Source: Synechococcus sp. PROS-7-1 | GTDB taxonomy: Bacteria > Cyanobacteriota > Cyanobacteriia > PCC-6307 > Cyanobiaceae | Reading direction: 5' to 3' | NCBI RefSeq assembly: GCF_014279795.1 | Contig: NZ_CP047945.1 | Location: 124,001 to 188,000 of the forward strand | DNA length: 64,000 nucleotides | Part shown: positions 2,619-39,038 of the stretch, piece after piece | Numbering within the stretch: the first letter of the stretch is position 1 | Layout of the letters: each line of letters starts with the position of its first letter | Program-made: the position numbers and the translations under genes | Notes under the pieces: generated by a model | What the model was told of the DNA's origin: nothing | The model's input: only the letters and a program-made list of their open reading frames with translations | The model's database searches: none

Positions 2619-3358
2619 GGGGATGGATCGTAATGCAACTCCTCGGGCTGCTCACCCTCGAGAACGGCCTGGCAGCGCGCCTGCAGCCACTGATCCAGCT
2701 GCTCCTGCAGCAGGCGTTGGCGCATGCCCTCATCCAGGCGTGCCGGGGTGAGTTTCTCCAGGCGCAGCAGCAGCACCCAGGGGCCGAGGGCTTCAGGGGG
2801 CCTGAGGTCTCCGGGTTGCATGTGGCGCAGTCGCTCAGCCAGTTCCGGTTGCAGATCACCCAGTGCCATGGGCCCCAGCAGGCCACGGCTGCTGGCTTCA
2901 GGACCATCGCTGTGCTGGGCAGCGGCATCGGCAAAGCTGATCTCCCCTTCACTGATCTGAATCCAGAGCTCCCTGGCCAGCCCGGGATCGCGCACGCGCA
3001 GCAGGGAATAGAGCGCGGTGTCGAGGTTGCTTTTGCGGGTGAGGAAATGCTCTTCCAGGCCCGGCCCGAAGCGCTGCTCCGAGAAGCATTTCAACGCTTC
3101 TGGACGGGCGAGATGGAGGAGCAGATCCTCCTGGCTCCAGTGTTTGCGTTCCAGCCAGGCCTGGAGATCCTCGTCGCTCTGCAGCGACTGCTGCTCACGG
3201 AACCGCTGTTCCAGATCGTCGAGGCAAGCATCGCTGAGGTTCACAAGCGCCGTGATCTCTTCTTCGATGCAGCGTTTGAGCAGGGTGGGGGCCAGCTCCT
3301 GACGGCGGATCAGGCCCTGCAGGGCTTCGTCCTCGATGGTCCAGTGTTGCCACTGCAT
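2615..3358 (-). CDS. Parvulin-type peptidyl-prolyl isomerase (SurA/PpiC-like)
   Basis: Protein of 247 residues. An N-terminal helical region rich in Glu and Leu is followed by a parvulin-like domain (about residues 135-225) with FADAAAQHSDGPEASSRGLL, LGPMALGDLQPEL and a final LGPWVLLLRLEKL strand. No signal peptide or lipobox is visible, so it probably acts in the cytoplasm or is exported without a classical signal. I chose ATG 3358 because it overlaps the TGA of the upstream TPR-glycosyltransferase gene (TGATG); an upstream in-frame extension is Arg/Pro-rich and looks non-coding. Its stop overlaps the exporter start (ATGA). Such isomerases accompany type I exporters in some cyanobacteria, so a role in keeping the exported repeat protein in a secretable form is a reasonable inference. 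Confidence 0.8.
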   Translation of the reverse strand: MQWQHWTIEDEALQGLIRRQELAPTLLKRCIEEEITALVNLSDACLDDLEQRFREQQSLQSDEDLQAWLERKHWSQEDLLLHLARPEALKCFSEQRFGPGLEEHFLTRKSNLDTALYSLLRVRDPGLARELWIQISEGEISFADAAAQHSDGPEASSRGLLGPMALGDLQPELAERLRHMQPGDLRPPEALGPWVLLLRLEKLTPARLDEGMRQRLLQEQLDQWLQARCQAVLEGEQPEELHYDPSP

Positions 3359-5082
3359 CAGCGCACCTCCTGGGCCAGGGCGTTGAGATCGAGGCCGAGC
3401 ACCTCGCCTAGGGCGTCCACCACCCCATCGATGGCGCTGCTCCAGTCGTGGCGTTTGGGTTGGCGGAACAGGCGCATGCTGCTGTACCAAGGGGAATCCG
3501 AGCGATCCCGCAACCAGCGGAAGTCGGCATTGTTGGGGAGTAACACCCAGGTGGGCAGATCCAGGGCTGCAGCCAGGTGGGCCACGGCGGTATCCACGCT
3601 GATCACCAGATCCAGCTGGCTCACCACATGGGCGGTGTCGCCGAAGTGATCCAGGCGTCCGTTCCAGTCTACGAGCCCCTCCAGGTGCTGGTAAGGAGCC
3701 AGTTCATCCGCATCGCTGCCCACCTGCAGGCTGTGCAATTCGATCAGGTCGTTGCTCAGAGCTGGCAACAGTCTGGGCAGGAGCAGTTTGAGGGGCAGGC
3801 TCTTTTGGCGATACATCGCCTTGTTGCCGGGATTGCTGGCCCACACCAGGCCCACGGCGATCCCCCCTGGGGGAGCTGGCACCAGCAGCTGGGCTGGAGG
3901 TGGGCCTGGCGGCCTTAGGTAGGGGGTTGCTGAAGGGATGGTGCTGAGCGTGGTGCGCAGGAGCCGGGGCAGGCTGAGCAGGGCCAGGTGCGGGGCTGTT
4001 TTCAGGTCTTCATCGAGGGCTGTGTCATCGCACACTGTGAGGCCTGGAGGTCCCCATTCCTGCACAAGCGGGATCAGGGTGCGGCGAGTGGCAAACACAA
4101 ACGACACCCCCAGCGCCTGCAGGATCGGCAGGTAACGCAGGAACTGAATCACGTCCCCCAGTCCCTGTTCGGTCCACACCAGGCAACGGCGCTGCTCACG
4201 GGCCAGCGCCTGCAGCTGCTCCATGGTCAACACCCAGGGCCCGCTGCAGGGGGGTTGTTTGCCGCTGAATTGTTTGGTGGTGAAGCGCGTTTCGTACAGC
4301 CGCCAACCTTCGTCGTAGTCGCCCAGCAAGAGCAGGGTGAGGGCCATGTTGAACACCGCTTCCGGTGAGCTTGGATCGAGGGCGCTGCCGCGTTGCAGAG
4401 CTTCGAGCGCTTCCTCCGGCTTCAGTTCCTCCAGCAGGGCCATGCCCACATTCACCCAGCCTTCGGCGTGGTGCTGGTCCACCTGGATCGATTGCAAATA
4501 ACAGCGTTTGGCCAGGTCGAAGTGTTCGCGTGCATGGGCAATCAGCCCGAAATTGCACCACACATCGGCGTTGCAGGGATCCAACTGCAGGCTGTTCTGC
4601 AGGGCCATTTCGGCTTCATCCAGCCGGTCCCGTTCGCGCAGGGCGATGCCGTAGTTGTGCCAAACCTGTGCTCCATTGGCATCGAGCGCGAGGCTGCGTT
4701 CATAGGCGAGCACGGCCTTGTCGTACTGATCCAGGTCGCTGTAGTGATTGCCCAGGTTGTAGTGGGCGTCGCTGCGCTCGGGCAGCAGGCTGGTGGCGCG
4801 CAGCAGGGCCTGTTCCGCTTCTTGGTGGTGGTTGGCCAGCTTGCGGGCGCAGAGGCCGGCGATGAGCCAGGCATTGCCGTCGTTCTGGAGATGGCTGCTG
4901 AAGCTGCGGTGCAGTTCGTAGCCCTCCTGGAAACGCTTCAGCATCCAGAGAGCGGCGGAGGCCACCACGGCCCATTCGGCCGATGCATGCTCCTGATCAA
5001 GCTCTGCACGGGCTTGGTTGAGGGCCGTCTCGGCCTTCAGGGAGCCTTCAGAAAGAGCAAGCAGGCAGTCTCCAGGCCCCAC
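3358..5082 (-). CDS. TPR protein with C-terminal GT9-like glycosyltransferase domain
   Basis: Protein of 574 residues. The N-terminal half has about eight tetratricopeptide repeats (for example AHYNLGNHYSDLDQYDKAVL and VWHNYGIALRERDRLDEAEM). The C-terminal half resembles heptosyltransferase-like GT9 folds: LVWTEQGLGDVIQFLRYLP near residue 295 and VISVDTAVAHLAAALDLPTW near residue 490. It is the first gene of a coupled three-gene run with the isomerase and the type I exporter. The start faces a plus-strand GT41 gene across 54 bases, so both promoters must lie in or beside that gap. The context suggests glycosylation of an exported protein; the TPR part would bind the acceptor. Sugar donor and acceptor are unknown. 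Confidence 0.85.
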   Translation of the reverse strand: MGPGDCLLALSEGSLKAETALNQARAELDQEHASAEWAVVASAALWMLKRFQEGYELHRSFSSHLQNDGNAWLIAGLCARKLANHHQEAEQALLRATSLLPERSDAHYNLGNHYSDLDQYDKAVLAYERSLALDANGAQVWHNYGIALRERDRLDEAEMALQNSLQLDPCNADVWCNFGLIAHAREHFDLAKRCYLQSIQVDQHHAEGWVNVGMALLEELKPEEALEALQRGSALDPSSPEAVFNMALTLLLLGDYDEGWRLYETRFTTKQFSGKQPPCSGPWVLTMEQLQALAREQRRCLVWTEQGLGDVIQFLRYLPILQALGVSFVFATRRTLIPLVQEWGPPGLTVCDDTALDEDLKTAPHLALLSLPRLLRTTLSTIPSATPYLRPPGPPPAQLLVPAPPGGIAVGLVWASNPGNKAMYRQKSLPLKLLLPRLLPALSNDLIELHSLQVGSDADELAPYQHLEGLVDWNGRLDHFGDTAHVVSQLDLVISVDTAVAHLAAALDLPTWVLLPNNADFRWLRDRSDSPWYSSMRLFRQPKRHDWSSAIDGVVDALGEVLGLDLNALAQEVR

Positions 5083-5136
5083 ATCCGTCGGTTCGATCGA
5101 ACGTAGACCTTAAGTTGAGCTGATCCGCTGAGTTGT

Positions 5137-7308
5137 ATGAACGCGGCCCAGCTGCGTCAGCAGGCTGTGGAAGCCCATCGGGCGGGCCACTGGCACGAGG
5201 CTGAGCAGGCTTATCTCCAGTTGATGGCCGAGGCGCCCGCCGCTGATCTCGCTGCCAATTACGGCAGCCTGCTGCGCTCCCAGGGCCGGCTGGATGCCGC
5301 GGAGGCTCATTACGGCAGGGCCTTGGCGGCCTTCCCCGATGATGTGCATCTGCTCTGTAATGCCTGCAATCTGCTGCGCGATCAGGGCAAGGCCGCCATC
5401 ACCGTTGATCTTTTGCAGCAGGCACTGCAACGCAGCAGCGGCAACCACGATCTGACCAAGGCACTGGCGCTGTCGTTGCATCACTGCGATCGCGTGGATG
5501 AGGCGTTGCAACTGCTGCCACGCTTGGTCTCCGCGCAGCCGGGCTGCTCGGAACTTCGCCTGGAATATGGCGCCTGCCTGGCCAAACGCGACGCACCCCG
5601 GGAGGCCATCGCCCAGTTCCGTGAAGCCTTGGCCATCGCTCCCAACGATCCCCGGGCGCTGGCGAATCTGATCATTCTGCTTGCGGAGCAGGGCGGCCTT
5701 CAGGAGGCCCGCACCGCGCTCGAACGCGGTGATGTGGATCAAGAGTCTCCGCGCATGCTCGGGGCCCGGGCTCAATTGTTGATGAGCGAAGGCGATGCGG
5801 AGGGTGCCCTGGCACTTCACCAACGCCTCACCGGCCTGGAGCCGGCGGTGGCGGACCACTGGCTGAATGTGGCGGCCTGCCACAAGGAGCTGCGGCGCAT
5901 GGTGGCGCCAACCCAGGCGCTGCGCCAGGCCGTGCGCCTGGCCCCGGAACGGCCGGACCTCCAGCTGGCGCTTGGCAGTTTGCTGGTGGAGCAGGGCCAC
6001 AGCGCCGAAGGCTTGCGCCTGTTGCAGGGCACCCTGGATCAGCCCGGGCTCAAGGATGAGCCGTTCACGGTGCATCAGTTCATCACGGCTGGCCATCGCC
6101 TGCTTCCCGCCGAGCAGTTGCGCCAGGAGGTGGAGCGCTGGGAACAGCGCAGGGCGCTGCCCTTGCAAGAGATCTGGCAAGACCGCATCCGCGATCCTGA
6201 TCCCCAGCGCCGCTTGCGAGTGGGATTTCTTTCGGCTGATTTCTCCAAGCATCCGGTGGGGCGCTTCATGGCGCCCCTGCTGGAGGCCCACGATCCTGAA
6301 CAGTTGGAGCTGGTGGGCCTCTCCTGCGGGCGCCTGCAGGATCACTTCACCGAGCGCATCCGGGCTGCCTGCTCCAGTTGGCATGAGCTGCGCTTCGGCA
6401 GGGATGAGGAAGTGGCGCGCTTGCTGGCCGATCTTCAGCTGGATGTGATCGTGGAGCTGGGGGGCTACACCGCCCAGCAGCGCCTGCGGCCGCTCACGGC
6501 CCGTCCGGCTCCGATTCAGCTCAGTTATCTGGGCTATCCCGCCAGCACCTACCTGCGCTGTATCGATGGTTGGATTGGTGACGCCGCCTGTTTTGGCCCT
6601 GCTCAGTTGCACGAGCGTGGTGTGAACGAGCAGTTGCTGGTTCTGCCCCGGGCCTACCTGGCCTATCCGCAGCCGGAGGAGGCTCCCCTGCCGGAGCGCA
6701 CCGCTGCCGATCAGCGCTTTCGCTTCGGCAGTTTCAACCACAGCCGCAAGCTCGGGGATGGCTGCCTCGATCGTTTCGTGGCTGTGTTGCAGGCTGTGCC
6801 TGACAGCGTGCTGGTGCTCAAGAGCACCACCTTTGAAGAACAGGCTGAACGGGACCGGATCCAGGGGCGGTTGATGCAGCGGGGTCTTGCTCCGGAACGC
6901 CTGGAGCTGCTGCCCCGCAGCGTTGATCAGTCCGCCCACCTGGCCAGCTACGGCCAGGTGGATGTGGCCCTCGACACCTGGCCCTACAGCGGCACCACCA
7001 CCAGCTGTGAGGCTCTGTGGATGGGGGTGCCGGTGTTGACTGTGATGGGTCAGGTGATGGTGGAACGGCAGACCGCCTCCGTGCTCGCTGCCGCTGGCCT
7101 GGGTTCGGCGATCAGCCGCAGCCTCGAGGAGATGGTGCAGAAAGCCCGTTTGGCGGCAGCCCAGGGTCCGCGCGATCAGCCGCAACGACTGGCTTTACGC
7201 GCACACGTGGCCGCGTCCGATCTGGCAGACAGTGCCTCCCTGGCCCGGGCCATGGAGGCGCTTTATCGCCAGCTCTGGCAGCGGCGGTCTTACGCCGCCA
7301 GGCTCTGA
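5137..7308 (+). CDS. TPR-containing GT41 glycosyltransferase (O-GlcNAc-transferase-like)
   Basis: Protein of 723 residues. TPR-type helical repeats fill residues 1 to about 340. The C-terminal GT41 catalytic region starts at RLRVGFLSADFSKHPVGRFM (about 356). It keeps the HPVG motif, the PIQLSYLGYPAS segment, GSFNHSRKLGDG with the Lys that contacts donor phosphate in characterised enzymes, and DTWPYSGTTTSCEALWMGVP. GT41 enzymes are soluble and modify Ser/Thr or Asn of proteins in the cytoplasm. No signal peptide is seen. The 3' end overlaps the end of a second, convergent GT41 gene by 19 bases. Its position between the exporter genes and the RTX gene makes the RTX protein a plausible acceptor (inference). 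Confidence 0.9.
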   Translation: MNAAQLRQQAVEAHRAGHWHEAEQAYLQLMAEAPAADLAANYGSLLRSQGRLDAAEAHYGRALAAFPDDVHLLCNACNLLRDQGKAAITVDLLQQALQRSSGNHDLTKALALSLHHCDRVDEALQLLPRLVSAQPGCSELRLEYGACLAKRDAPREAIAQFREALAIAPNDPRALANLIILLAEQGGLQEARTALERGDVDQESPRMLGARAQLLMSEGDAEGALALHQRLTGLEPAVADHWLNVAACHKELRRMVAPTQALRQAVRLAPERPDLQLALGSLLVEQGHSAEGLRLLQGTLDQPGLKDEPFTVHQFITAGHRLLPAEQLRQEVERWEQRRALPLQEIWQDRIRDPDPQRRLRVGFLSADFSKHPVGRFMAPLLEAHDPEQLELVGLSCGRLQDHFTERIRAACSSWHELRFGRDEEVARLLADLQLDVIVELGGYTAQQRLRPLTARPAPIQLSYLGYPASTYLRCIDGWIGDAACFGPAQLHERGVNEQLLVLPRAYLAYPQPEEAPLPERTAADQRFRFGSFNHSRKLGDGCLDRFVAVLQAVPDSVLVLKSTTFEEQAERDRIQGRLMQRGLAPERLELLPRSVDQSAHLASYGQVDVALDTWPYSGTTTSCEALWMGVPVLTVMGQVMVERQTASVLAAAGLGSAISRSLEEMVQKARLAAAQGPRDQPQRLALRAHVAASDLADSASLARAMEALYRQLWQRRSYAARL

Positions 7309-9464
7309 CGCAACGCTCCCCAGCAGCTCCACAGGGCTGTTGCGAGCCCTTCGGCATCGCCTAGGGCACTGGTTTGCACCCGCCTGCGCAACGCCCGGCG
7401 CCCCTGACGCAGGGCGTTCACTTGGGCGGCCGCGTCCACCGCAATGCGCAGATAGGCGTCTTCGCTGTTGGCGATGTACTGCGGCAGATCGGCCGCTGCC
7501 AACACGGCCGTCGACATGCGGCCCACGTAGTGACTGCCGCACAGCGTGATCACCGGCACCCCCATCCACAGAGCTTCGCACGTGGTGGTGCAGCCTCCAT
7601 TTGGGAAGGGATCCAGGGCAATGTCCATCAGGCCGTATTGGCGCAGGTGGTCGTCGGGCCGGGCCGTGGTGGGCAGCCAGATCACCCGCTCCAGGGGGAG
7701 GCCGCAGCGGCGCATGCGCCGTTGGATCAGCTCGGCCACCCCGGGATCATCGGAGGCGAACGCTTTCAAGGCCAGCTGGGCGGAGGGCACGGCGTTCAAC
7801 AGCTGGGCCCAAAGCGTGAGCGTGGCGGCGCTGAGCTTGCGAGCATGGTTGAAGCAACCGAAGGTCACGGGGCCGTCCGGCCCTGGCGGCACGTCCACCC
7901 TGCCTTCAGGCAGGTGCTCACTGGGCTTCCAGGCCAGAAATGCGCGGGGAAGGCGCACGATGCGCTCGCTGTGCCACTCCTGCATCGGTGTGGGGAACAG
8001 GGCCTGATCGCCGAGCCAGGCGTCCATCGCCGGCAGACCGCTGGAGGCGTAATACCCCAGGTAATTGATCTGCACGGGGGCGATCCGCGGCGCGAACAGG
8101 TGGGCGCTGTGGTTGGCGGTCCAACCCGTGAGATCCACGGCCACATCAAGCTGGAGATCGCGCATCCTCTGCAGTTGATCAGCCTCGCTGCGCTGGGAGA
8201 GATCGATCAGCTGGTTACCGGCCAGCTCCTGGGTGCGGGGCATGGGTGTGCCTTGTGTTGAGGCCAGAAACAGAGTTCCGCCCTGGCCGAGACCGGCTTC
8301 CAGCAGCATCTGCACGAACCGGCCAACGGGGTGGTAAGCGAAATCCGGGCCCACCAGGGCCACCCGCAGGGGTGTGCTGGCGGGGCCAGGGGTGGGGGCT
8401 GTAGGGACGGCGTAACGCTTTGCTAGCCGTTCGGTGGCCTCAACGGCCCGGGGGTGGGACTGGGAGGCCAGCTGCATCACCAGATTGGAGCAGAGCAGCG
8501 GTCGTTGCTCTAGGGCTTGCCAGGCGTTTGGATGCAGCCAGGGCATCAAATGGCTGCAACCGGTTTGGTCGTAGGCATTGAGCAGGTTGCCATCGCTCTC
8601 GCCGGGGTGGGCGTTCAGGCTGCCGAGGCTGTATTGCAGGCGCTCCTGAAAAGCACTGCGGCGGCCTTCAGCGGTTTGGCGACCGATCAGCTGCACGGCA
8701 TTGCGGATGTGGGCGATTTCGGGGTGGCGGGGATGCTGCCGGCTTGCCACGGTGATCGCCAGGCCGTTGTGAAGGCCGGCGGCATTGTTGAGCTGCAGGG
8801 TTTGCTGCCAGGCCAGGGCGCTGCCGTGGCCGCGCTGCAGCAGGTAATCGAGCGTCTGCATGGCTGCGTCCCGTTGTCCGAGGGCTCGCAGGGCCACAGC
8901 CTTGAGTTCGAGCGCTTCCGGGCTGTCGAGATTGCTCGGCCACTGGCAGAGGCTGAGGCTGAGGCCATCGAGTTCCTGGCGCAGGAATTGCTCCTGCAGC
9001 GCCTGCAGCCATTGCAGCGGCGAGTGTTTGGATGCATCGGGTGGCTCGCTGGCGCTGGCGAGGTCTTGGAGCTGGCGGCGCCGCAGCATCAGGCTGGCTT
9101 GCAGTGCCTGCCGGCGTGCTGCAGCCAAGGTCTCTCCTGCTTGGGCCAGCGCCGCTTCGGCTTGCTCGAGCAGTTGCAGGGCCCAGAGGCGCTGCTGACG
9201 GCGCTGCTGCTGGCCCACTAAGAGGTCTAGGGCCAGGCAGCGATCAGCTGGATCGCCGCCCTGCAGGGCGGCCAGCAGGGTTGCTTCGGCAGCGCTGAGC
9301 TCACCCAGGCGTTGCAAGAGCACGGCCCGGCGCAGGATGGCGTGGGGCGGGCAATCTTGTAGCTGGCGTTGCGCCTCCTGGGGCCAGCAGCAGCGCTCCT
9401 GCTCCAGGGGCAGGGCATAGGTGGCAGCAGGCATGGCGTGCAGATCAGGGCCAGGGGCGAGCAT
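7290..9464 (-). CDS. Second TPR/helical-repeat GT41 glycosyltransferase
   Basis: Protein of 724 residues. The N-terminal part is helical, rich in Ala, Leu and Gln, with degenerate TPR-like repeats. The catalytic part starts near residue 345 at LRVALVGPDFAYHPVGRFV and keeps PVQINYLGYYASSG, FGCFNHARKLSA and NGGCTTTCEALWMGVPVITL. It diverges clearly from the GT41 enzyme encoded at 5137-7308, so the pair is not a recent duplication. The start is ATG 9464, directly after the T-run of the terminator of the RTX gene; GGGGAG in the terminator's 3' arm sits 8 bases upstream and is the only Shine-Dalgarno-like sequence. An alternative start is ATG 9434, which has no visible ribosome site. Expression probably depends on read-through from the RTX gene. 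Confidence 0.88.
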   Translation of the reverse strand: MLAPGPDLHAMPAATYALPLEQERCCWPQEAQRQLQDCPPHAILRRAVLLQRLGELSAAEATLLAALQGGDPADRCLALDLLVGQQQRRQQRLWALQLLEQAEAALAQAGETLAAARRQALQASLMLRRRQLQDLASASEPPDASKHSPLQWLQALQEQFLRQELDGLSLSLCQWPSNLDSPEALELKAVALRALGQRDAAMQTLDYLLQRGHGSALAWQQTLQLNNAAGLHNGLAITVASRQHPRHPEIAHIRNAVQLIGRQTAEGRRSAFQERLQYSLGSLNAHPGESDGNLLNAYDQTGCSHLMPWLHPNAWQALEQRPLLCSNLVMQLASQSHPRAVEATERLAKRYAVPTAPTPGPASTPLRVALVGPDFAYHPVGRFVQMLLEAGLGQGGTLFLASTQGTPMPRTQELAGNQLIDLSQRSEADQLQRMRDLQLDVAVDLTGWTANHSAHLFAPRIAPVQINYLGYYASSGLPAMDAWLGDQALFPTPMQEWHSERIVRLPRAFLAWKPSEHLPEGRVDVPPGPDGPVTFGCFNHARKLSAATLTLWAQLLNAVPSAQLALKAFASDDPGVAELIQRRMRRCGLPLERVIWLPTTARPDDHLRQYGLMDIALDPFPNGGCTTTCEALWMGVPVITLCGSHYVGRMSTAVLAAADLPQYIANSEDAYLRIAVDAAAQVNALRQGRRALRRRVQTSALGDAEGLATALWSCWGALRQSLAA

Positions 9465-9515: not shown

Positions 9516-11180
9516 TCAGCCGAGGCTGGTGATCGAGGAAGCGCTCACGTTGGTGAAGGTAATGGAGAGATCGCCTACTGAAGCACTGGTTGAACCGAAC
9601 GAGGCCGCACCGGCGGTGAAGGTGACGGTGGTTGTGCCCAGAGTCAACGTTGCAGCGTTACTCGTGCCGCCCAAGGTGACGTAAGTTCCTGTGCCGTTGA
9701 AAGTTTCATCAATGGCAAAGGTGATGTTGCCGTTTGTGATTGTGCTGGTGAAGTCGATGGTGTCGTTGCCGCCACCAAAACCGAAGAAGTAGGTGCCAAG
9801 GTTTTGACCAGTTGTTCCTGAGGCTTCGCCCTCGACCACGTTGTACTTGATGGAGTCAGCGCCAGTTCCGCCAACCAAGGACACGCCACCTTGAGTTGCA
9901 ACGCCCAAGGAAATGGTGTCGTTGCCGTCACCACCAAGAATCTTGGAAGAGGAGATGTAGTTGGCACCGGAGAAGACGTCGTTGCCTTTGTCCAGATAGA
10001 CCTTGCCGGAGGTCATCACGATGCCTTCGACCGTAACTCCGTTGTCGGAGGAAGCAGCAACGGTGTCAGCGCCTTGGCCGCCGTAGATGGTGACTTTATT
10101 AGCAGTGAAGCTGCCGATGAAGTCATTACCGGCGTTGCCTTGGAGGTAGGCGCTGGAGAAGGAACCACCGATGACGTCGACGCCGTCGCCACCGAGCAGA
10201 GTGGCACTCATGGCTTTGCCGCTGACAACGTCGTTGCCCTTATCGAGGGAAACCACGCCGCCGGTGATGCCGAAGTTGGCGCTGGTATCTCCGGTCAGGA
10301 AGACTACATCGTTGCCCTGGCCGCCGTAGACGGTGGTACCGATCAGGCTGCCGCCCACGGAGAAGACGTCATTGCCGGCGTTGGCGTTGAAGCTGGAGGA
10401 AAGAAGTTCGCCAGCATAAAACTCGATGGTGTCAGCACCAGCACCACCCTCAACAGAAACAGATGAGAAAACGCTGGAGGAGTCGGTGTTGGTCAGCACG
10501 ATGCTGTCATCACCGCCATCACTGCTGCCGTTATCACCCAGGATGGTGGAGTTGATGAATTGTGCGGTATTTGCGAAGTTAATGACGTCGTCGCCCAGGT
10601 CGCCGCGCACGAGCGTTTTGCTCAGGCTGGACCCATCGTCAGTGATGGTGTCGTCGCCTTTGCCGCCGTAAAGGGTAGAACTAATCGCTTTTCCGTTGAA
10701 CTGAACAATGTCGTCACCGATGTCGGCAAGCACCACACCGTTGCTGATGGTGGTGAAGGTAATCTCGTCATTGCCTTCGTCGCCGGCCGAAACGCCGCCG
10801 TCACCGTTCAGTGTGGAGTTGACCACAACTTTGAAATCCAGAGTGTCAGCACCCTTGTCACCGCTGGCGTAGGCGTTGGTGAAGGTTTTGCCGAAGGTGA
10901 TGACGTCGTTGCCTTTGCCGCCGTAGAGGGTGGCCCCAGAAGCGGTCACCCCCAGGGTGATCACATCGTTGCCTTCGTCGCCCCTGATCTGGGTTTCGTT
11001 GGCTGTAGCGGATTGCACGAGCTCGTCGTTGCCTTTGCCGCCAAAGAGCAGGTCAGCGCCGCCCAGGCCGTTAACGAAGTCGCTGGCTTGAAGAGCAGAA
11101 ATTGAGTCAGCACCGGAAGTTCCGGAAATGTTGTCAACGGTGTCCGTGCCGAGGATGGAGTTGTAGACGGTGGATGTCAT
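9516..11180 (-). CDS. RTX-type calcium-binding repeat protein, probable type I secretion substrate
   Basis: Protein of 554 residues, rich in Gly, Asp, Ser, Thr and Asn, with no Cys and no Sec signal peptide. About 20 GxGxD motifs (GGKGND, GDEGND, GGQGND, LDKGND) run from residue 40 to about 480. They are usually 18-22 residues apart, not in the tandem 9-residue spacing of classical RTX toxins, so each unit looks like one canonical calcium row plus one degenerate Ser/Thr-rich row. The C-terminal 80 residues lack motifs and are Thr/Ser-rich beta-prone sequence, suitable for a type I secretion signal. About ten N-X-S/T sequons are present (NIS, NET, NST, NDT, NIT, NGT, NVS). It has its own promoter, long leader and strong terminator, which suggests high expression. 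Surface or S-layer-like glycoprotein is an inference. Confidence 0.88.
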   Translation of the reverse strand: MTSTVYNSILGTDTVDNISGTSGADSISALQASDFVNGLGGADLLFGGKGNDELVQSATANETQIRGDEGNDVITLGVTASGATLYGGKGNDVITFGKTFTNAYASGDKGADTLDFKVVVNSTLNGDGGVSAGDEGNDEITFTTISNGVVLADIGDDIVQFNGKAISSTLYGGKGDDTITDDGSSLSKTLVRGDLGDDVINFANTAQFINSTILGDNGSSDGGDDSIVLTNTDSSSVFSSVSVEGGAGADTIEFYAGELLSSSFNANAGNDVFSVGGSLIGTTVYGGQGNDVVFLTGDTSANFGITGGVVSLDKGNDVVSGKAMSATLLGGDGVDVIGGSFSSAYLQGNAGNDFIGSFTANKVTIYGGQGADTVAASSDNGVTVEGIVMTSGKVYLDKGNDVFSGANYISSSKILGGDGNDTISLGVATQGGVSLVGGTGADSIKYNVVEGEASGTTGQNLGTYFFGFGGGNDTIDFTSTITNGNITFAIDETFNGTGTYVTLGGTSNAATLTLGTTTVTFTAGAASFGSTSASVGDLSITFTNVSASSITSLG

Positions 11181-11337: not shown

Positions 11338-12549
11338 TCACTGCAGGGTTGCCATCAGAGCAGCCCAACCTTCAAGTCCAGCTGCCGCGCTGTAGGGGGC
11401 AACTTTGGCTTGAGCGCGCTCTCCAAGGGCCTCGGCCAGAGCCGAATCGCCCAACAGCCGGTTGAGTTGGCTGGCGATCGCCTTGGGGTCCCAGAAGTCC
11501 GCCAACAGGCCTTCGCGTTCCGTGCTGATCAGTTCTTCAACGGGAGCCGTGGCACTGGCGGTGATTGCGCAACCGGCCGCCATCGCCTCCAGCAAGCTCC
11601 AGCTCAGCACGAAGGGGATCGTGAGGTACAGGTGGGCTTGGCTGTAAGCGAGCAGCCCGTGGTAGTCCTCAGTGCCGAGGGCGCCCAGCCAGTGGGTGCG
11701 GGCGGGGTCGAGGCCGCAGCAGTCCTTGGCCCATTGCCCCCAGCTGCGTCCATCGCTGCGCTCCTGCCCGTAGCAAACGCTGTCGTTCCCGGCGATGCAC
11801 ACATGTGCCATCGGGCGCTGCTGCTGCAGCAGTGCCAGGGCTTCCATCGCCTGGGGAAAACCGCGGTAGGCCTCGAAGCCCCGGCTCACGTAGCTCACCA
11901 CTTCTACGCCATTGCCTTGGGGCAGCCAGGGAGGAGGAGCCGGTTTGTGGATGCGCAAGGCCACCAAGCGTTCCACATCCACCCCTTCATGGATCAGGGT
12001 GAGCTGGGAGCGCAGGGCCTCGGGAAACTGCTGGCGTTGCCAATTGGTGGGCACCACGGCGGCGTCGCAATCCGCCAGTTCCAGCAGCAATTGGGCGTTC
12101 CAGGTGCGCAGGCGCAGTTGGCGATCGGCTTCCACCACCCCCTTCTGCAGGAAATCCACATCACTGCCGAAGGCGTTGTAGTACCACTCAAACAAGCTGA
12201 TGCGTTTGGCTTGGGGGAAGGCATCACCGAGGTAAAGCCCTGCGCCGAATCCGGCATGGCTGAGGATCACATCCGGCTGGAACCCCTCGTGATCCAGGGT
12301 TCTGGCGGCCCGATAGGCCGCCTGCCCCTGGCACACAGCGGTTTCCAAGCGCCGCAGGTAGGGGTGACAGTGCTCCGGATCTTTGCTTCTCGCAGCGGCG
12401 TAACCCACCAGCTTTACCCCTTGGGGATCCGGTGCGTGCCATTCCCGGCCTTGATGCAGGAACACCACCTCGTGGCCTGCGGCCACCAGGGCGGGGGCCA
12501 GCCTGCGGAACTGGGAGGGATAGGTGCTGTGGCTGATCAGGATGCGCAT
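11338..12549 (-). CDS. GT4 family glycosyltransferase
   Basis: Protein of 403 residues with the two-domain GT-B layout. The N-terminal domain starts MRILISHSTYPSQFRRLAPA; the C-terminal donor domain ends with LSWSLLEAMAAGCAITAS and PVEELI, a version of the GT4 E-x7-E region. It is a clear paralogue of the product of 15284-16492 (shared (Y/F)P(S/G)QFR(R/Q)L opening and WSLLEAMA core). It closes a run of five co-directional genes (16492 to 11338) and lies just upstream of the RTX promoter. Donor sugar unknown. Confidence 0.88.
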   Translation of the reverse strand: MRILISHSTYPSQFRRLAPALVAAGHEVVFLHQGREWHAPDPQGVKLVGYAAARSKDPEHCHPYLRRLETAVCQGQAAYRAARTLDHEGFQPDVILSHAGFGAGLYLGDAFPQAKRISLFEWYYNAFGSDVDFLQKGVVEADRQLRLRTWNAQLLLELADCDAAVVPTNWQRQQFPEALRSQLTLIHEGVDVERLVALRIHKPAPPPWLPQGNGVEVVSYVSRGFEAYRGFPQAMEALALLQQQRPMAHVCIAGNDSVCYGQERSDGRSWGQWAKDCCGLDPARTHWLGALGTEDYHGLLAYSQAHLYLTIPFVLSWSLLEAMAAGCAITASATAPVEELISTEREGLLADFWDPKAIASQLNRLLGDSALAEALGERAQAKVAPYSAAAGLEGWAALMATLQ

Positions 12550-12559
12550 CGGCGCTCCT

Positions 12560-13468
12560 TCAGCCCTTCAGGGCCTGGGCAAACACGTCGTGATACCCCT
12601 GCAGCAACCAGCGCGGCAGCTTCTGTTCCGGCTGGTCCACCTGCATGCTGCCGGGTTCGAACAGCGTCATGGCCACCAGGAAGGCATTCACCGCCCCCGG
12701 GGTCCCGAAGCCTCCACCTTGTGTGGGTTGCAGGCGTTGCGTCACCCGCTCACGCAGTTGCTCTTCCACCGGTTGCAGAACTTCTTTCTGCACACCAGAG
12801 CGCACCAGCGCCCAGTAGCGATCGCTGAAATCCCCCTGGAAATGCCCTTCCAGTTGTTGCTCGGGGCACTGCAGGATTAGTTGTGCGAGCTGCAGACGCA
12901 GCTGGCGCAATTCCTGTTGGATCTCTTGATCCTCAGGATCGATGTAATAGAGGTTGGAGAGCCCCAACAGGCGATTGAGCTGAATGCGGTTGGCCACGAA
13001 CGCCTCCAGGCTCGAGGGCATCGCCCCGAAATCCGGAGCGGTTGGCGCTTGGCTGGGGGTGGGCTGCGGCATTTGTGCAGGCACGGGTGGTTGCCCAGCA
13101 CCGCTGGCCCCGCCTTGTTCGTACAGCGCCAGATAGCCTGGAACCAGCCACCCGGGCAGGTTGGCCTGGGGGTTGGCGATCGTGAGCTTGCCGGGGGGTG
13201 AGAACAGGAAATTGGCGATTAAAGCCTTGACGGCACCGGGTTGCTGCAGCCCCTTTTGCAGCTGGGCTCCCAGGCGGTTGCGCAGCTCCACCTGCTCCGG
13301 CGGCAGGTAGGTGCTGGGGGTGAGCTGGGCCGTGAGCTGGCGGGTGGCTTCACCCACCTGGCTGTTCCAGAGGCTTTCCAGAATGTCCTCAGGTGCTGCC
13401 AACCAGAACTGGGCCAGTTCATCGCGCATGCTTCCAGCCACTGCGCTGGTCACGGTCCAGGCCTTCAT
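12560..13468 (-). CDS. Unrecognised protein with an internal duplication
   Basis: Protein of 302 residues that I do not recognise. Two copies of a module of about 90-100 residues are visible. Copy 1 (about 15-125) ends PGAVKALIANFLFSPPGKLT, then LPGWLVPGYLALYEQ. Copy 2 (about 205-300) ends PGAVNAFLVAMTLFEPGSMQ, then LPRWLLQGYHDVFAQ. A Pro/Gln-rich linker (about 125-150) and a segment with LNRLLGLSNLYYIDPEDQEI separate them. No signal peptide or membrane segment is seen. The start MKAWTV was chosen because the upstream extension is Arg/Cys-rich and atypical, and because it clears the stop of the upstream gene. It sits 10 bases before the downstream GT4 gene and belongs to the same run. An accessory or acceptor-binding role is only a guess. 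Confidence 0.75.
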   Translation of the reverse strand: MKAWTVTSAVAGSMRDELAQFWLAAPEDILESLWNSQVGEATRQLTAQLTPSTYLPPEQVELRNRLGAQLQKGLQQPGAVKALIANFLFSPPGKLTIANPQANLPGWLVPGYLALYEQGGASGAGQPPVPAQMPQPTPSQAPTAPDFGAMPSSLEAFVANRIQLNRLLGLSNLYYIDPEDQEIQQELRQLRLQLAQLILQCPEQQLEGHFQGDFSDRYWALVRSGVQKEVLQPVEEQLRERVTQRLQPTQGGGFGTPGAVNAFLVAMTLFEPGSMQVDQPEQKLPRWLLQGYHDVFAQALKG

Positions 13469-13499: not shown

Positions 13500-15053
13500 T
13501 CACAGATGCTTCTCGGGCAGGGCCTGCTGCAGGCGTGCTCGGCTGTCCTCATCCCGGCAGGCTCTAAGCACCTCATTCCAGAGCGGCAGGCGGCCCTGCC
13601 GCACCACGTCTGGGAGCGCATCAAGGCTGTTGGTGGCGTTAGGGCTGCTGGCTGCCGTTGGCAAGCTGGCATAACGGCTGAACAGGCGCACCGGGTTCAG
13701 GCCGATCGCAGCGGCCGGTGGCTCAGCTTGTGGTTGCGCTTGGGCCCGCCGTTCAGCGAGATCGGCGAAGAGGTCGTCGTAGCGGCGCATCACTTGCTGC
13801 CCTTCGCAGCGCTCCTGCATCTGCTGCCGTCCCTGGCGTCCCATGGCCCGGGCCATGCTGGGATCTTGGAGCAGGCTGAGCAGCATCGCCTCGGCTGCGT
13901 TGGTGTCGAGAGCCACCAGCTGGGCCAGGGCTCCTGCGATTCCCGGGTAGCTCTGCAAGCCGAGTTCCTGGGCCCAGGCCAGCCCTTCGGAGGCCAGGTG
14001 CGCATCGGTCAGCCAACGGCTGGGAACCAGAAAACCATCCACCCCCTGGCGCACCAGGTTGCGGTAGCCATCCCAGTCGGACACGAGCATCGGTAGCCCC
14101 GCCGCCATCGCCTCAACCAGCGACAGGCCGAAGGTTTCCTGGCAGTTGTCCACCAGGGAGATCGCCACATCAGCTGCAGCCAGAGCCTGGTGCTTCACCT
14201 CTTCCGGCACCGCCTCGCTGCCGCCGAGCCTGAGAAAGCGCACGTTCGGGCAGAGGGCCCGCAACTGGGCCAGGTGATCTCGTTGCGGCTCTGAATCATC
14301 CGGACCGCATTCGATCAGCCACAGCTCCTGCGGGAGCTGGCGGGCCACCGCCTCCAGCACCCGGTATTGCGCCCAGGGGTCGAGTTTGGTGAACAACGAC
14401 AGCCGGCCCAACCAGAGGCACACCGATGCCTCTGGCGGCAGGCCAAGTTGCTTGCGGGCTGCGTTGCGGTCCGGCAGGGCCTCGATTAGTGCGTTCACGG
14501 CCACCGGTAGGGGGATCACCGGCAACTGGGGCCGCTGGGGAGGCTGGTGCGGTCCGAAGCGACGCTGCATCCACGTTTCCCGGTCGTCCAGGATCGCGTT
14601 CACCACATCCCGGCCTGCGCAACTGCTGCAGATCAGGGCATCCCAGGGTTGGACGGGCTCGGTGACCAGGGATTCCATCATCCTCACCGCCGACGACGTG
14701 TTCAGGGTGTGGATCTGGCCGATTAATGAGAAGTGCTGGGAGCCGCAGCGCGCCCGCCAGCGGCTCCAGCGCCCCAGGTTGGGATCGGGAATGAACAAGC
14801 CCCCGATCGCTTGATACGGATGGGGATGCAGCAAGCCATGCCCATGCCGTTGTCCCCGGTGGCCGGCCTGAGCGAGCACATCGCTCAGTTGGGCGGGGTA
14901 CTGAGGATCAGCGCAGGCCAGGTGGAGGTCACGATTTCCCAAGAACTGAGCCCAGGCCTCCAGCAGTGCGCTGCCTGCCCAGCGCCGACCGTTGAGATTG
15001 GTGGTTTGCCGGAACATGTCCGGCGCCACCATCAAAGCGGGCCATTTAGCCAT
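13500..15053 (-). CDS. GT4 family glycosyltransferase
   Basis: Protein of 517 residues. The GT-B C-terminal domain carries VCLWLGRLSLFTKLDPWAQY (donor-domain opening), then NCQETFGLSLVEAMAAGLP and SDWDGYRNLVRQGVDGFLVP, typical of GT4. About 100 extra residues at the C-terminus are helical and of unknown role. The N-terminal domain begins MAKWPALMVAPDMFRQTTNL, near the expected Rossmann start. The ATG overlaps the stop of the small membrane protein gene by 8 bases, so the two are probably co-translated. Donor and acceptor unknown. Confidence 0.87.
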   Translation of the reverse strand: MAKWPALMVAPDMFRQTTNLNGRRWAGSALLEAWAQFLGNRDLHLACADPQYPAQLSDVLAQAGHRGQRHGHGLLHPHPYQAIGGLFIPDPNLGRWSRWRARCGSQHFSLIGQIHTLNTSSAVRMMESLVTEPVQPWDALICSSCAGRDVVNAILDDRETWMQRRFGPHQPPQRPQLPVIPLPVAVNALIEALPDRNAARKQLGLPPEASVCLWLGRLSLFTKLDPWAQYRVLEAVARQLPQELWLIECGPDDSEPQRDHLAQLRALCPNVRFLRLGGSEAVPEEVKHQALAAADVAISLVDNCQETFGLSLVEAMAAGLPMLVSDWDGYRNLVRQGVDGFLVPSRWLTDAHLASEGLAWAQELGLQSYPGIAGALAQLVALDTNAAEAMLLSLLQDPSMARAMGRQGRQQMQERCEGQQVMRRYDDLFADLAERRAQAQPQAEPPAAAIGLNPVRLFSRYASLPTAASSPNATNSLDALPDVVRQGRLPLWNEVLRACRDEDSRARLQQALPEKHL

Positions 15054-15283: not shown

Positions 15284-16492
15284 TTACGTCGCTTGCTTGC
15301 TCCTTCCGCTCTGCTCGAGCAGTGCGGCCAGGGCGGGCAGCGTTAGGCGCTGGTCGTAGAGCAGGGCTCGTTGCCGGGCCGCTTTCCCCAGCCGTTGGCG
15401 CAACTCAGGATGGTTCAGCAGCTGATCCACAGCCTGCGCCAGGGCGTTGGCATCCCGGCCGGGCACCAGCAGGCCCTCCACGCCGTGCTCGATTACTTCG
15501 TTCACGGGAGCCCCTGTGCTGCCCACGATGCAGCAGCCGCAGGCCATCGCTTCCAGCAGGCTCCAGCCCAGGATGAACGGGGAGCTGAGGTACACGTGCA
15601 CGCTGCTCACCTGCAGCAGGCTGATCAGATGGGGATGGGGGATGCGGCCGAGAAAGTGAATGCGCCCCAGATCCAGTTGGCCGCTGAGCTCTTCGAGCAT
15701 CACCTCCTTGAGCGCGCGTCCACTGGGATGGCCAGGGCCATATCCCGACTCGTTGTCACCCACGATCAACACCCGCAGCCGTGGATGGCGCTTCTGGAGC
15801 TGGGGCAGTGAGTGCATGAACGTGTCGAAGCCTCGCAGCTGCTCCAGCTGGCGGTTCACCAGGGTGAGGGTGGGAACCGTGCGGTCGATGCGGCTGCCCC
15901 TCACTTCAAACGCCATCTGCGCATTGGGGATGGCTGTTGTTTTGGCATCAATGCCTTCATGGATCACATGCAGGCGCTGATCCTGAAAGCAGGGGGGGAG
16001 GCTCCGGGCCTGGTGTTGGGTGGGCAGCACCCAGGCCTTGGCCATGCTCAGGGCGGTGCGGGTGAGCAGGTTGCGCTCCAGATGGACCAGAGGATCCGTG
16101 GGTTGCAGCCCCAGATGCTCCGGGCGCATCCACAGCTCAGGCCACACGATTTGAGGAACGTCCGGCCAGATCTCCTGCAGCCCCAGAGATTCACCCCAGC
16201 CGCAATGCACGGCGATGCCGTCGGGGTGCCAGCCCTGCTGCTTGAGCTCAGTGCAGAGTCGGGCCACGGCCTCAGCCCGTGCCAGCGCTTCATGCCAAAG
16301 CCGCGAACGGCCTTGGAGCTCTGGAGGCGCTGGTGCTGGCTCCGGGTAGCGCAGCACCCGGGTGTTAGCAATCTCGGCGAGAGGGCGCTGATGGCTGCAG
16401 ATCCCGACCAGCTCATGGCCCCGTTGGCTCAGAAAGGGAACCAGCTGGCGGAACTGTCCGGGGAAGTTCTGGTGAATCAACAGAAACCGCAC
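15284..16492 (-). CDS. GT4 family glycosyltransferase
   Basis: Protein of 402 residues, GT-B fold. It starts MRFLLIHQNFPGQFRQLVPF, and the donor domain has LGWSLLEAMACGCCIVGSTG, PVNEVI and HGVEGLLVPGRDANALAQAV. Paralogue of the GT4 encoded at 11338-12549. First gene of the five-gene run 16492-11338. Its start faces the sulfotransferase gene at 16552 across 59 bases that hold a 7-bp inverted repeat. Probably cytoplasmic; substrate unknown. Confidence 0.88.
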   Translation of the reverse strand: MRFLLIHQNFPGQFRQLVPFLSQRGHELVGICSHQRPLAEIANTRVLRYPEPAPAPPELQGRSRLWHEALARAEAVARLCTELKQQGWHPDGIAVHCGWGESLGLQEIWPDVPQIVWPELWMRPEHLGLQPTDPLVHLERNLLTRTALSMAKAWVLPTQHQARSLPPCFQDQRLHVIHEGIDAKTTAIPNAQMAFEVRGSRIDRTVPTLTLVNRQLEQLRGFDTFMHSLPQLQKRHPRLRVLIVGDNESGYGPGHPSGRALKEVMLEELSGQLDLGRIHFLGRIPHPHLISLLQVSSVHVYLSSPFILGWSLLEAMACGCCIVGSTGAPVNEVIEHGVEGLLVPGRDANALAQAVDQLLNHPELRQRLGKAARQRALLYDQRLTLPALAALLEQSGRSKQAT

Positions 16493-16551: not shown

Positions 16552-17481
16552 ATGACTGCAGACACCCTTCGGCTGATGCTGGTTCTGGGATTGCCCCAGG
16601 CTGGGGGCCAGCGTCTGCGTCGCTGCCTGGAACTCTGCGGCGCTCCCGCCATCAGCAGCGAGCCCCTCGCCAAGCTGCATGCAGCCAGTTTGGAAGCCGC
16701 TGGCACCGATGGTCTGTCGATCCGCAGCTTGCCAGCCCGTTGGTACGGCAGTGACGCCGCTGCCGGCTTGCAGCAGCAGCTGCTGGATGTGCTTCAAGGG
16801 TGCCTGCCCAACCAGGGCCTGCGGGTGCTTCAGCTCCCCGGCCAGGAACGGCTCTTGCCCCTTTGGAAGCAAACGCTCGCGGCGCTGCCGATCAGCACCA
16901 GTTTCGTGCTGGTGCTGCGCCATCCCCTCGAGGTGGCAGAGAGCTTGTCGAGGCAGTCTGGCTGCAGCCGGGATCGCGGCCTGTTGATCTGGTTGCAGAG
17001 CATGCTGGCGATGGAGGCCGCCACCCGTGGCGAGGAGCGCCTGGTGCTGGAGCAGGAACGCTTGAGCTGGGATCCCGACGGTGTGCTCGACCAGCTGGAG
17101 CGCCATTTCCACCTGCAGCTGCCAGAGCGCAGCCATGAACGCCTGCTGCTTTGGGAACAGGAGGAACAGGCGCAGCGCCACAACCCGTGGTCGGCGGAAC
17201 GGTCCGATGTCCCCCAGTCGGTGGAGGGATCACCCCTGCTGCAGATGGCATTGGAATTGCACCAGTGGTTGCAGGCCGAGGCCCGGGGCGAGACGCGCCA
17301 GCGCCTGATGCCCGATGTGATCTGCCAGCAGCTGGCCTGGGCGGAAGCGCTCTATGGCCGCACCCTGGCAGAAGAACTGCAGCAGCGCCGCCAGGCTGAA
17401 CGGGACCTGTCCCAGCTCAATCGCAGTCGTCTGCTGCGTCTGCGCCGTTGGCTGCGCCGGGATCTGTCCCAGGCGAGCTGA
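16552..17481 (+). CDS. Sulfotransferase-like protein
   Basis: Protein of 309 residues. The layout fits PAPS-dependent sulfotransferases: a P-loop-like LMLVLGLPQAGGQRLRRCLE at residues 8-27 (degenerate, no classical GTTS) and a 3'-phosphate-type segment TSFVLVLRHPLEVAESLSRQ near residue 117, followed by a helical C-terminus. The degenerate 5' motif means activity is uncertain. The first gene after a divergent promoter; its 3' end overlaps a convergent gene by 65 bases. In this context it would sulfate a sugar during glycan assembly (inference). Confidence 0.65.
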   Translation: MTADTLRLMLVLGLPQAGGQRLRRCLELCGAPAISSEPLAKLHAASLEAAGTDGLSIRSLPARWYGSDAAAGLQQQLLDVLQGCLPNQGLRVLQLPGQERLLPLWKQTLAALPISTSFVLVLRHPLEVAESLSRQSGCSRDRGLLIWLQSMLAMEAATRGEERLVLEQERLSWDPDGVLDQLERHFHLQLPERSHERLLLWEQEEQAQRHNPWSAERSDVPQSVEGSPLLQMALELHQWLQAEARGETRQRLMPDVICQQLAWAEALYGRTLAEELQQRRQAERDLSQLNRSRLLRLRRWLRRDLSQAS

Positions 17482-18337
17482 CCACGCCCCCGATCAAGCT
17501 GCGGAAGCTGGTTCCCCAGTGCTGCAGTTCCAGAAACGCGGCATTGGCCAGATGGGGCTTGAACAATCGGAAGGTTTTGCAGAGCCCCAAGGTGGCGGCA
17601 CTTTCCAGCGGTGAAATGAAGCTGCAGTCTCCGTCGAGAAACCAGTCCTGCTCGCTCCAATGCTGCATCTGAGCGTGGGTCAGCACGAAGCAGCCCGCAT
17701 GGGGATTCACCGGTGGGATGAACACGATGTCTCCCCCTGGTAGCGGAGCCCCCACAGGAGTACTGGTGTGCTTCAGGAAAGGCTCCAGGTAATCCCTCGG
17801 GATTGGGCCATCGATGTAAAACTTGTCCACGTTGGTATCGGCTTTCCAGAACAACTCCATGCGCTGGGGCAGGAGCACGGCGTCCTTGCCGATGTGGGCC
17901 TGGAACCAGGCGATCTTGTGAAAGAAGAACGGGTCGTGGATCAGCAGGTCGTCTTCGAAGTAGGCGTAGAGGTCATAGTGCTCATCGAGCCCCTCGGCCA
18001 GCAGGCGCTGGGCTTCGAAGCCGAGATGGCGCGGATCCTCCGGGCTAGTGGGCACGTGCTCAACCCAGTTTTGATAGAGCGGGTCAAGCCGTTCCGCCAG
18101 ATGGTGCTGGCCATCGGTCACCAGCCGCACGCTCAGTTTGTGGCGCAGGCTCTGGTTGGCGTTCTCGACGGTTTTGGTGTGGATATTCAGGGCTCCCTGG
18201 CGTCGATCCAGGCGCCGGAAGCTGAGCAGTTGATCTTGAAGGGCGTGCAGGCGGGGCTCGGGGTTGGGCCGCAAGGAGGCGTGATTGCCATTCCCTTTTG
18301 GATTCCAGTGATGCACGATCGTGATCAGGATGCGCAT
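17417..18337 (-). CDS. Putative GT-A-like glycosyltransferase
   Basis: Protein of 306 residues. It starts MRILITIVHHWNPKG; the middle carries YDLYAYFEDDLLIHDPFFFH, where EDD resembles the metal-binding DxD of GT-A transferases, and later PLPGGDIVFIPPVNPHAGCF. I do not know a firm family. The start was chosen at the MRIL strand; the upstream extension overlaps the previous gene and is not protein-like. It follows the 18360-19445 gene by 22 bases, so the two are probably one transcript. Its last 65 bases overlap the sulfotransferase-like gene on the other strand. Confidence 0.6.
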   Translation of the reverse strand: MRILITIVHHWNPKGNGNHASLRPNPEPRLHALQDQLLSFRRLDRRQGALNIHTKTVENANQSLRHKLSVRLVTDGQHHLAERLDPLYQNWVEHVPTSPEDPRHLGFEAQRLLAEGLDEHYDLYAYFEDDLLIHDPFFFHKIAWFQAHIGKDAVLLPQRMELFWKADTNVDKFYIDGPIPRDYLEPFLKHTSTPVGAPLPGGDIVFIPPVNPHAGCFVLTHAQMQHWSEQDWFLDGDCSFISPLESAATLGLCKTFRLFKPHLANAAFLELQHWGTSFRSLIGGVVSSPGTDPGAANGADAADDCD

Positions 18338-18359
18338 CGCGGTTAAGGGTGCTGCGGGA

Positions 18360-19445
18360 TCATTGCGGCCCAGTCTGCAGGCTGGGAAAGCGTTGCAGCA
18401 GGCGCTGATCCAGGGCACCGCGCACACGCCAGAGATGGCGGTAGAGCGCGCCGCGCCATTGACTTTGTTGCATCAGCCCATGGGCCTGGATCGCCTGGTG
18501 TGCTGCCGCCGCGATCGTGCGGCGTAGGTCTGGGTTGGCGGCCAGGCGCCGGGCGGCGGCCACGAGGTCAGGGCCATCGGCAGCCCAAAGCCCCAGGCGA
18601 TCGTTGGCGAGCCAGGGGCCATAGAGCTCCGGTCCGGCCACCACCACGGTGCTCTCCGCAGCAGCCTCCAGCCACTTGATCGGTGTTTTGCAGGCCTGGG
18701 GGATGCCTTCCTGTAGGGGCAATAGAGCGATGTGGCAACTTGCCAGCAGCTGCCGATAGCGCCTATAGGCCAGCAGCGGATGCTGCTCGATCTGGCCCGG
18801 TCGGGCCTGAAGCGGCAGGTCTTGGTGACCGGCGCAGACCAACTGCAGCTCCGGGGCCTCCTGCAGCCAGGCCTGCAAAGCTGGTTGCAGCTGCTGATGC
18901 TCCTGGGTGCGGTTGAGGTTGCCCAGAAACACACGTAGGGGTTCCCGAGCCTGATGTTTGCCCAGATTGAGAGGCGGGATCGGCGCCACGGCGTTCTCCA
19001 CCACCAGGCTGTGGGGGTTCAAGGGCGTCAGTGCCTGCGCCAGCTTCGGGCAGGACACCTGCAGGGCATGGGCGAGCCTGAGGTGGCAGCAGTGCGTTCG
19101 CCGTAGTTTCTGGCGGGTGCGCTCCGGGAATAGATCGGGGTGGTCATCCCACTCCACCAGCAGCAGCGATCCGCGGGAACGCACCCATTGCAGGGCATTC
19201 GCCCAGGAGGCGGTTTGTTCTGGCAGTGGCCGTTGCCAGATCACCAGGCTGGAGGCGCGCACCATGGCAAGGGGTTGGATCGGTGGGTGATGGATGCGCA
19301 CATCCCATCCCTGAGCCTTTAAGGCTTCAAACGGTTGCGCCACCCGCACCGTGTTCCAGCTGCCCGGGGCATTCACCAGCAGGTCGATGCGGGGGCCGGG
19401 AGTGGACAACGGGCGCTTGCAGGAACGGCAAGGCTGCCATGACAA
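18360..19445 (-). CDS. GT4-like glycosyltransferase (CgeB/YkvP-type)
   Basis: Protein of 361 residues. The N-terminal domain has IDLLVNAPGSWNTVRVAQPF and the LLVEWDDHPDLFPE motif seen in CgeB/YkvP-like glycosyltransferases. The C-terminal domain has LRVFLGNLNRTQEH and ACKTPIKWLEAAAESTVVVA, a shortened donor-binding region. The start faces the GT9 gene at 19471 across only 25 bases, so at least one promoter lies inside coding sequence. Substrate unknown. Confidence 0.72.
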   Translation of the reverse strand: MSWQPCRSCKRPLSTPGPRIDLLVNAPGSWNTVRVAQPFEALKAQGWDVRIHHPPIQPLAMVRASSLVIWQRPLPEQTASWANALQWVRSRGSLLLVEWDDHPDLFPERTRQKLRRTHCCHLRLAHALQVSCPKLAQALTPLNPHSLVVENAVAPIPPLNLGKHQAREPLRVFLGNLNRTQEHQQLQPALQAWLQEAPELQLVCAGHQDLPLQARPGQIEQHPLLAYRRYRQLLASCHIALLPLQEGIPQACKTPIKWLEAAAESTVVVAGPELYGPWLANDRLGLWAADGPDLVAAARRLAANPDLRRTIAAAAHQAIQAHGLMQQSQWRGALYRHLWRVRGALDQRLLQRFPSLQTGPQ

Positions 19446-23471: not shown

Positions 23472-23493
23472 CGCCGGCAGAGGCGCTGAGGCC

Positions 23494-27981: not shown

Positions 27982-28081
27982 GCCAGTTAGAACCGCATTA
28001 TTCGCCGCTGCATGCTGGCATCAGACTGCGGCTCAGCGGTCATGCGCGATAACGTCGCGCCGACCTCGGTTGGCTGGGCCT

Positions 28082-30421: not shown

Positions 30422-30428
30422 CCCGGCC

Positions 30429-32364: not shown

Positions 32365-32374
32365 TCTGCCCGCG

Positions 32375-38956: not shown

Positions 38957-39038
38957 GAACGTTGTGCGGTACGGATGGCCGCAGTATCCCTGCTGAGAGA
39001 CCTCAGTAGGCTGGCGCGCAGACGATTTAGCGCCTTCC

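Follow-up and report, generated by a model that had tools for sequence, protein, structure and literature searches.

The window, as we call the whole 64-kb stretch of Synechococcus sp. PROS-7-1 DNA analysed here, encodes a 302-residue protein built from two copies of a predicted all-helical module which, to judge from sequence comparisons, belongs to a so far undescribed domain family that occurs widely in cyanobacteria. We propose, and would give the proposal an even chance of being right, that the GT4 glycosyltransferase whose gene comes immediately downstream (11338-12549) has this protein as its dedicated non-catalytic partner, and that the two belong to a cytosolic system for glycosylating a protein of the cell surface, with the RTX protein of the same gene cluster as the most likely target. 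The module is linked to sugar transfer because it is fused to glycosyltransferases in other cyanobacteria and is strictly paired with this GT4 in picocyanobacteria. Few photosynthetic cells are as abundant as picocyanobacteria. Their surface coats, which are important to grazers and phages, are made by glycosyltransferase islands for which we know of no established targets. With a partner strictly paired with one transferase and a module fused to many, finding the ligand of the module may reveal the substrate of the enzyme, and the unnamed domain family would allow many unannotated cyanobacterial proteins to be labelled as glycosylation machinery. The gene, its parts and the paired GT4 gene are as follows.

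12560..13468, minus strand: gene of the two-module protein, 302 aa from ATG to TGA, all-helical, a predicted cytosolic and non-catalytic glycosyltransferase partner
13115..13432, minus strand: module 1, protein residues about 13-118, carrying LPGWLVPGY
13007..13114, minus strand: Pro/Gln/Ala-rich linker, residues about 119-154, with a pLDDT of about 50 over much of its length
12911..13006, minus strand: conserved inter-module stretch 'FVANRIQLNRLLGLSNLYYIDPEDQEIQQEL', residues about 155-186
12566..12910, minus strand: module 2, protein residues about 187-301, carrying LPRWLLQGY
11338..12549, minus strand: GT4 glycosyltransferase (PF12000 Glyco_trans_4_3 and PF00534), the obligate neighbour of the module gene

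Each copy of the module spans about 105 residues, and the two are about 30-31% identical. When the N-terminal half of the protein was compared with the C-terminal half, BLASTP aligned 109 columns at 30% identity with E = 1e-14, and the Smith-Waterman score was 128, whereas 2000 shuffles gave 31 +- 5.7 and never exceeded 68, so that the similarity of the two halves is far above chance. A first-pass annotation of the window, made from the letters and open reading frames alone, had described a duplicated module with a linker between the halves; the duplication is borne out by these comparisons, and the linker is present, rich in Pro, Gln and Ala and of low confidence in the AlphaFold2 model. The recurring motifs read from the sequence were exact for PGAVKAL/PGAVNAF and LPGWLVPGY/LPRWLLQGY, but the proposed F(S/E)PG is FSPPG in copy 1 and FEPG in copy 2. 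The stretch that follows the linker also occurs between tandem modules of multidomain relatives (alignment columns 200-227), and elsewhere in the 64-kb window no further copy of the module scored above chance. Against its Vulcanococcus relative the gene has a dN of 0.20 and a dS of 1.32, and the resulting dN/dS of about 0.15 indicates that the open frame is a real gene under purifying selection. Retention of the duplication in homologues had been set beforehand as a test of this architecture, and all 41 two-copy relatives examined retain both modules. In a tree of the modules, the N-terminal copies from these 41 proteins formed one clade with a support of 0.88, which suggests that the duplication is old and was retained, predating both the close homologues and a more divergent group of stand-alone forms, group II.

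A contig search with the single window protein as query returned no relative, an alignment of five relatives returned 16 loci, and a profile of six modules found the family in 36 of the 291 genomes of the class, representing 25 of 130 genera. Outside the family of the window organism, the module is mostly part of long open reading frames, the longest encoding 2747 aa. In 18 distinct proteins one module lies ahead of a GT41/SPINDLY-like catalytic domain, with the interval between them constant at 93-96 residues, the minimal form being a 634-aa protein (L057) with a module and then the GT41 domain. In these GT41 relatives the module sits outside the catalytic domain; their C-terminal part strongly matches SPINDLY and OGT, and their N-terminal part gave no TPR or HMW1C sequence match. 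Other arrangements place three tandem modules behind a GT4 domain (L050 and its close relative L055) or three or four behind a GT41 domain (L046-L049). Giant polypeptides of 2747 and 2243 aa are encoded by open frames at L046:739-8979 (+) and L047:5570-12298 (-), and the former, which is reminiscent of an assembly line that makes a single glycan, holds an FkbM methyltransferase, a GT4, two GT2 and a GT41 domain followed by three tandem modules. That module and GT4 form a single chain in L050 and are adjacent genes in the window provides a fusion-type argument for their physical association, although not proof of it.

The fused relatives invite comparison with the known GT41 enzymes. The TPRs of OGT and SPINDLY help to bind acceptor proteins, and the module shares with the TPR array its position ahead of the GT41 domain. 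A TPR repeat, however, is a 34-residue helix-turn-helix whereas the module has about 105 residues, LPxWL is not a TPR signature, and TPR profiles were absent from the matches of the window protein at E up to 1 and of 41 modules at E up to 10. The all-alpha domain (AAD) of HMW1C/NGT enzymes resembles the module of the fused relatives in being helical and in preceding the GT-B domain of GT41, and in AaNGT it binds the acceptor sequon through Arg177 and Asp215, the R177A and D215A mutants being inactive (PMC10507012). The window protein differs from these enzymes in holding two modules and no GT-B domain; all-helical and 302 aa long, it lacks the PF13844 domain of GT41 and falls outside that family. 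Searches of the PDB with profiles built from the 41 modules and from 11 N-terminal regions retrieved no HMW1C chain, and Pfam scans of modules and N-terminal regions found no HMW1C N-terminal family. A structural model of the minimal fused form L057 (pLDDT 82.1, pTM 0.76) overlaid ApNGT (8j30_A) over 510 residues with an rmsd of 4.8 and a Z of 30.0, a score dominated by the GT-B domain, and aligned model residues 6-611 with residues 1-619. The overlay on 3q3e_B, whose Z is likewise driven by GT-B, started at model residue 1 with an rmsd of 6.8. Most overlays of OGT and SPY structures began at about residues 100-140 of L057, past the main body of the module, with a few starting near 40-80. These models hint that the module occupies the place of the NGT AAD in the fused relatives, with the caveat that the overlay score is dominated by the GT-B domain. 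In the best-known GT41 relatives the part that precedes the catalytic domain, be it TPRs or AAD, helps to read the acceptor, and by analogy the twin-module protein may serve the GT4 as a trans-acting subunit for recognition of the acceptor or the enzyme.

The main rival to this reading is a connector among several enzymes, in which the two modules would join several glycosyltransferases (GT4 and GT41) for sequential addition of sugars and leave the acceptor untouched, the window protein then being a split counterpart of the multi-enzyme chains of larger cyanobacteria. The presence of modules, often in tandem and C-terminal, in single polypeptides together with FkbM, GT4, two GT2 and GT41 domains (L046) agrees with such an assembly line, and two modules on a flexible linker would suit a bridge. 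In the GT41 fusions, however, the one copy is built in at a fixed distance from the catalytic domain, which fits a working part of the enzyme better than a connector, and we regard the scaffold as a serious but minority possibility. The first-pass annotation had suggested a scaffold or an acceptor-recognition protein without choosing between them; the fusions to GT41, GT4 and GT2 and the strict pairing with one GT4 gene strengthen that suggestion, while the role as such is still one that we infer.

The pairing itself is close. In the window the TGA of the module gene is followed by AGGAG and, 10 nt after the stop, by the ATG of the GT4 gene, an arrangement from which the two genes are probably co-translated. 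We took a census of 400 genomes of the (picocyanobacterial) family, drawn from a larger group, with cut-offs of >180 bits for a module homologue and >300 bits for a GT4 orthologue. All 21 close stand-alone homologues were followed at once, on the same strand, by the GT4 orthologue, at a distance of 15-51 nt from the end of the alignment. Elsewhere a GT4 orthologue above 300 bits occurred only in G241, where the module gene is split into two ORFs, and in G331, where the contig starts inside the GT4 gene; the best paralogue scored 257 bits. In G241 (L045:8140-9035, minus strand) the two ORFs overlap, encode one module each and are still accompanied by the GT4 orthologue together with an RTX protein, and they represent either a frameshift or a natural division into two chains. 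Distribution was patchy in the window's own genus, with the protein in 2 of 31 genomes (the window genome and Synechococcus WH7803, whose orthologous cluster is in CT971583.1), and close forms were found in further genera including Prochlorococcus and Vulcanococcus. The stand-alone protein and its GT4 occur together in cyanobacteria of both oceans and lakes. Many members of group II came from one genus, including Cyanobium-like genomes; at 14 of 20 group II loci another GT4_3 gene lay alongside the module gene, and a TPR-GT9-like gene did so at 19 of 20. Two contigs labelled Crocinitomicaceae and Deltaproteobacteria (L069 and L071) carried module, GT4 and RTX genes of cyanobacterial type and were probably misbinned, transfer being the less likely alternative.

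A one-to-one pairing of this kind has a precedent in GtfA-GtfB, a two-component glycosyltransferase with a non-catalytic partner for O-glycosylation of serine-rich streptococcal adhesins. The likeness lies in a transferase paired one-to-one with a non-catalytic protein near the gene of a surface protein; the difference is that GtfB is a relative with a GT fold, whereas the window protein is all-helical and belongs to another family. The module protein could likewise serve the GT4 alone, as a stabiliser or as an obligatory regulatory subunit, needed for the enzyme's folding or activation and reading no acceptor, as the tight linkage to a single GT4 orthologue would suggest. We think this unlikely, given that members of the module family work with GT41 enzymes too and are encoded beside other GT4 and TPR-GT9 genes, so that the family is not tailored to one enzyme.

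The first-pass annotation placed the gene within a run of glycosyltransferase genes, and its neighbours agree. In addition to the two genes described above, the cluster contains the following.

3358..5082, minus strand: TPR protein with weak GT9 similarity, whose homologues lie at the end of the cluster and beside group II module genes
5137..7308, plus strand: second GT41 glycosyltransferase, with TPRs, convergent and conserved in the cluster
7290..9464, minus strand: GT41 (OGT/SPINDLY-like) glycosyltransferase, conserved in the cluster
9516..11180, minus strand: RTX-type protein with Ca-binding repeats, 554 aa, the candidate acceptor
13500..15053, minus strand: GT4 glycosyltransferase whose gene immediately precedes that of the module protein, also in several relatives
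15284..16492, minus strand: GT4 (Glyco_trans_4_3) glycosyltransferase, a cluster member in several relatives
17417..18427, minus strand: uncharacterised 336-aa protein, a cluster member in several relatives

A minus-strand ORF at 5110-7185 was rejected as the shadow of the plus-strand GT41 gene at 5137-7308. With neighbours in relatives labelled by BLAST against the window's own proteins, the order module, GT4, RTX and GT41 with the convergent second GT41 was kept in WH7803, G294, G288, G168, Synechococcus MU1642 and several Prochlorococcus single-cell genomes. The RTX protein and the GT41 enzymes were present in every intact core locus. The module and GT4 genes remain together also at three loci where the RTX gene is divergent (L068, L069 and L071). 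The RTX region of WH7803 (L038:10541-15426, plus strand) consists of two overlapping ORFs in different frames, of 544 and 1183 codons, where most loci have one. Because it is retained in the cluster, the RTX protein is the leading candidate for the acceptor.

The same constancy, together with the nearness of the RTX gene even where the arrangement is altered (L068-L070), could be taken to mean that the module protein is an export chaperone or folding factor for the RTX protein, independent of sugar transfer. This we consider very improbable, given the fusion of the module to transferases and the fetched regions of L042-L044 and of the multidomain relatives L046-L057, in which glycosyltransferases were present yet no RTX-repeat ORF was detected.

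The module can also be defined as a family in its own right. Its members share a helical unit of about 105 residues, an Arg near the start, a central Gly, LPxWL near the end, and linkage or fusion to glycosyltransferases. Across 131 aligned modules the Pro (99%) and Trp (98%) of the LPxWL motif, an Arg (95%) and a Gly (95%) were the conserved positions, and the best acidic position was a Glu at 66%; the lack of conserved Asp, Glu or His favours a binding or structural unit over an enzyme, and on sequence grounds catalysis by the module protein is unlikely. That it might be an enzyme in its own right, for example a small glycosidase or transferase with a new fold, is hardly credible, for strong conservation of Arg, Gly, Pro, Trp and Tyr is offset by the 131 modules having no Asp, Glu, His, Cys or Lys position with conservation above 66% and by the lack of any match to an enzyme family or fold.

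The protein had been noted as uncharacterised and outside known enzyme families, a description that holds after Pfam and NCBIfam searches. A Pfam scan of the window protein with E up to 1 gave zero matches, and nothing consistent in Pfam, NCBIfam or PHROGs covered the module in the window protein, its relatives or the 41 modules. We rejected an identity with EAD2, for which the match in L050 was weak and below the cut-off and recurred in just 2 of 41 modules, and a phage origin, for which there was no matching phage record. Profile searches of the PDB gave chance matches alone, such as designed repeat proteins, and our literature search found no paper on the module or on HMW1C-like enzymes in Synechococcus. 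An AlphaFold2 model of the window protein from 26 aligned sequences (mean pLDDT 88.9, pTM 0.58) consisted of two all-helical domains and the low-confidence linker, a pTM of this size being expected where two domains move relative to each other. The helices of module 1 were at residues 8-24, 27-34, 37-47, 57-71, 79-87 and 109-117. Foldseek searches with this model gave a best E of 0.85 and no convincing fold; importin/exportin and other solenoids were rejected, with VIA-align Z values of at most 5.8, the noise level for helical models. HMW1C was absent among the fold-search rows of the model, an absence that excludes nothing. No hydrophobic segment was evident in the translation, and the protein is probably cytosolic.

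In the partnership that we favour, the GT4 at 11338-12549 and the twin-module protein would act in the cytosol, so that the acceptor would be glycosylated before export. As a separate polypeptide, the twin modules would do in trans what the fused enzymes have built in; their task would be to hold on to the acceptor protein, or to dock the GT4 either to it or to the GT41 enzymes, with contact made through the conserved R...G...LPxWLxxxY framework. Enzyme binding, acceptor binding, the RTX protein as acceptor and the order of sugar transfer are all points that we infer. Because the cluster is embedded in a long run of glycosyltransferase genes, the RTX protein may be a neighbour and not the acceptor. 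The GT4 could instead act on a lipid-linked glycan. More tentatively, and with less than even confidence, we suggest that the module family as a whole is a plug-in part for acceptor recognition, which some lineages have built into GT41 and GT4 enzymes and which picocyanobacteria supply in trans, as a twin-module protein that would steer the GT4 to the RTX surface protein.

Two further features of the window were recorded. Overlapping antisense ORFs of 891 and 955 aa occupy 39027-41702 (minus strand, without a Pfam match) and 39039-41906 (plus strand). Positions 22752-37665 hold a large surface-glycan island with a GT25, sulfotransferases, a sulfatase-like protein and many glycosyltransferases, one of them a GT4 that follows a sulfotransferase-like domain in the same fused chain (25711-27981), together with an ABC-2 exporter pair (32375-33999).
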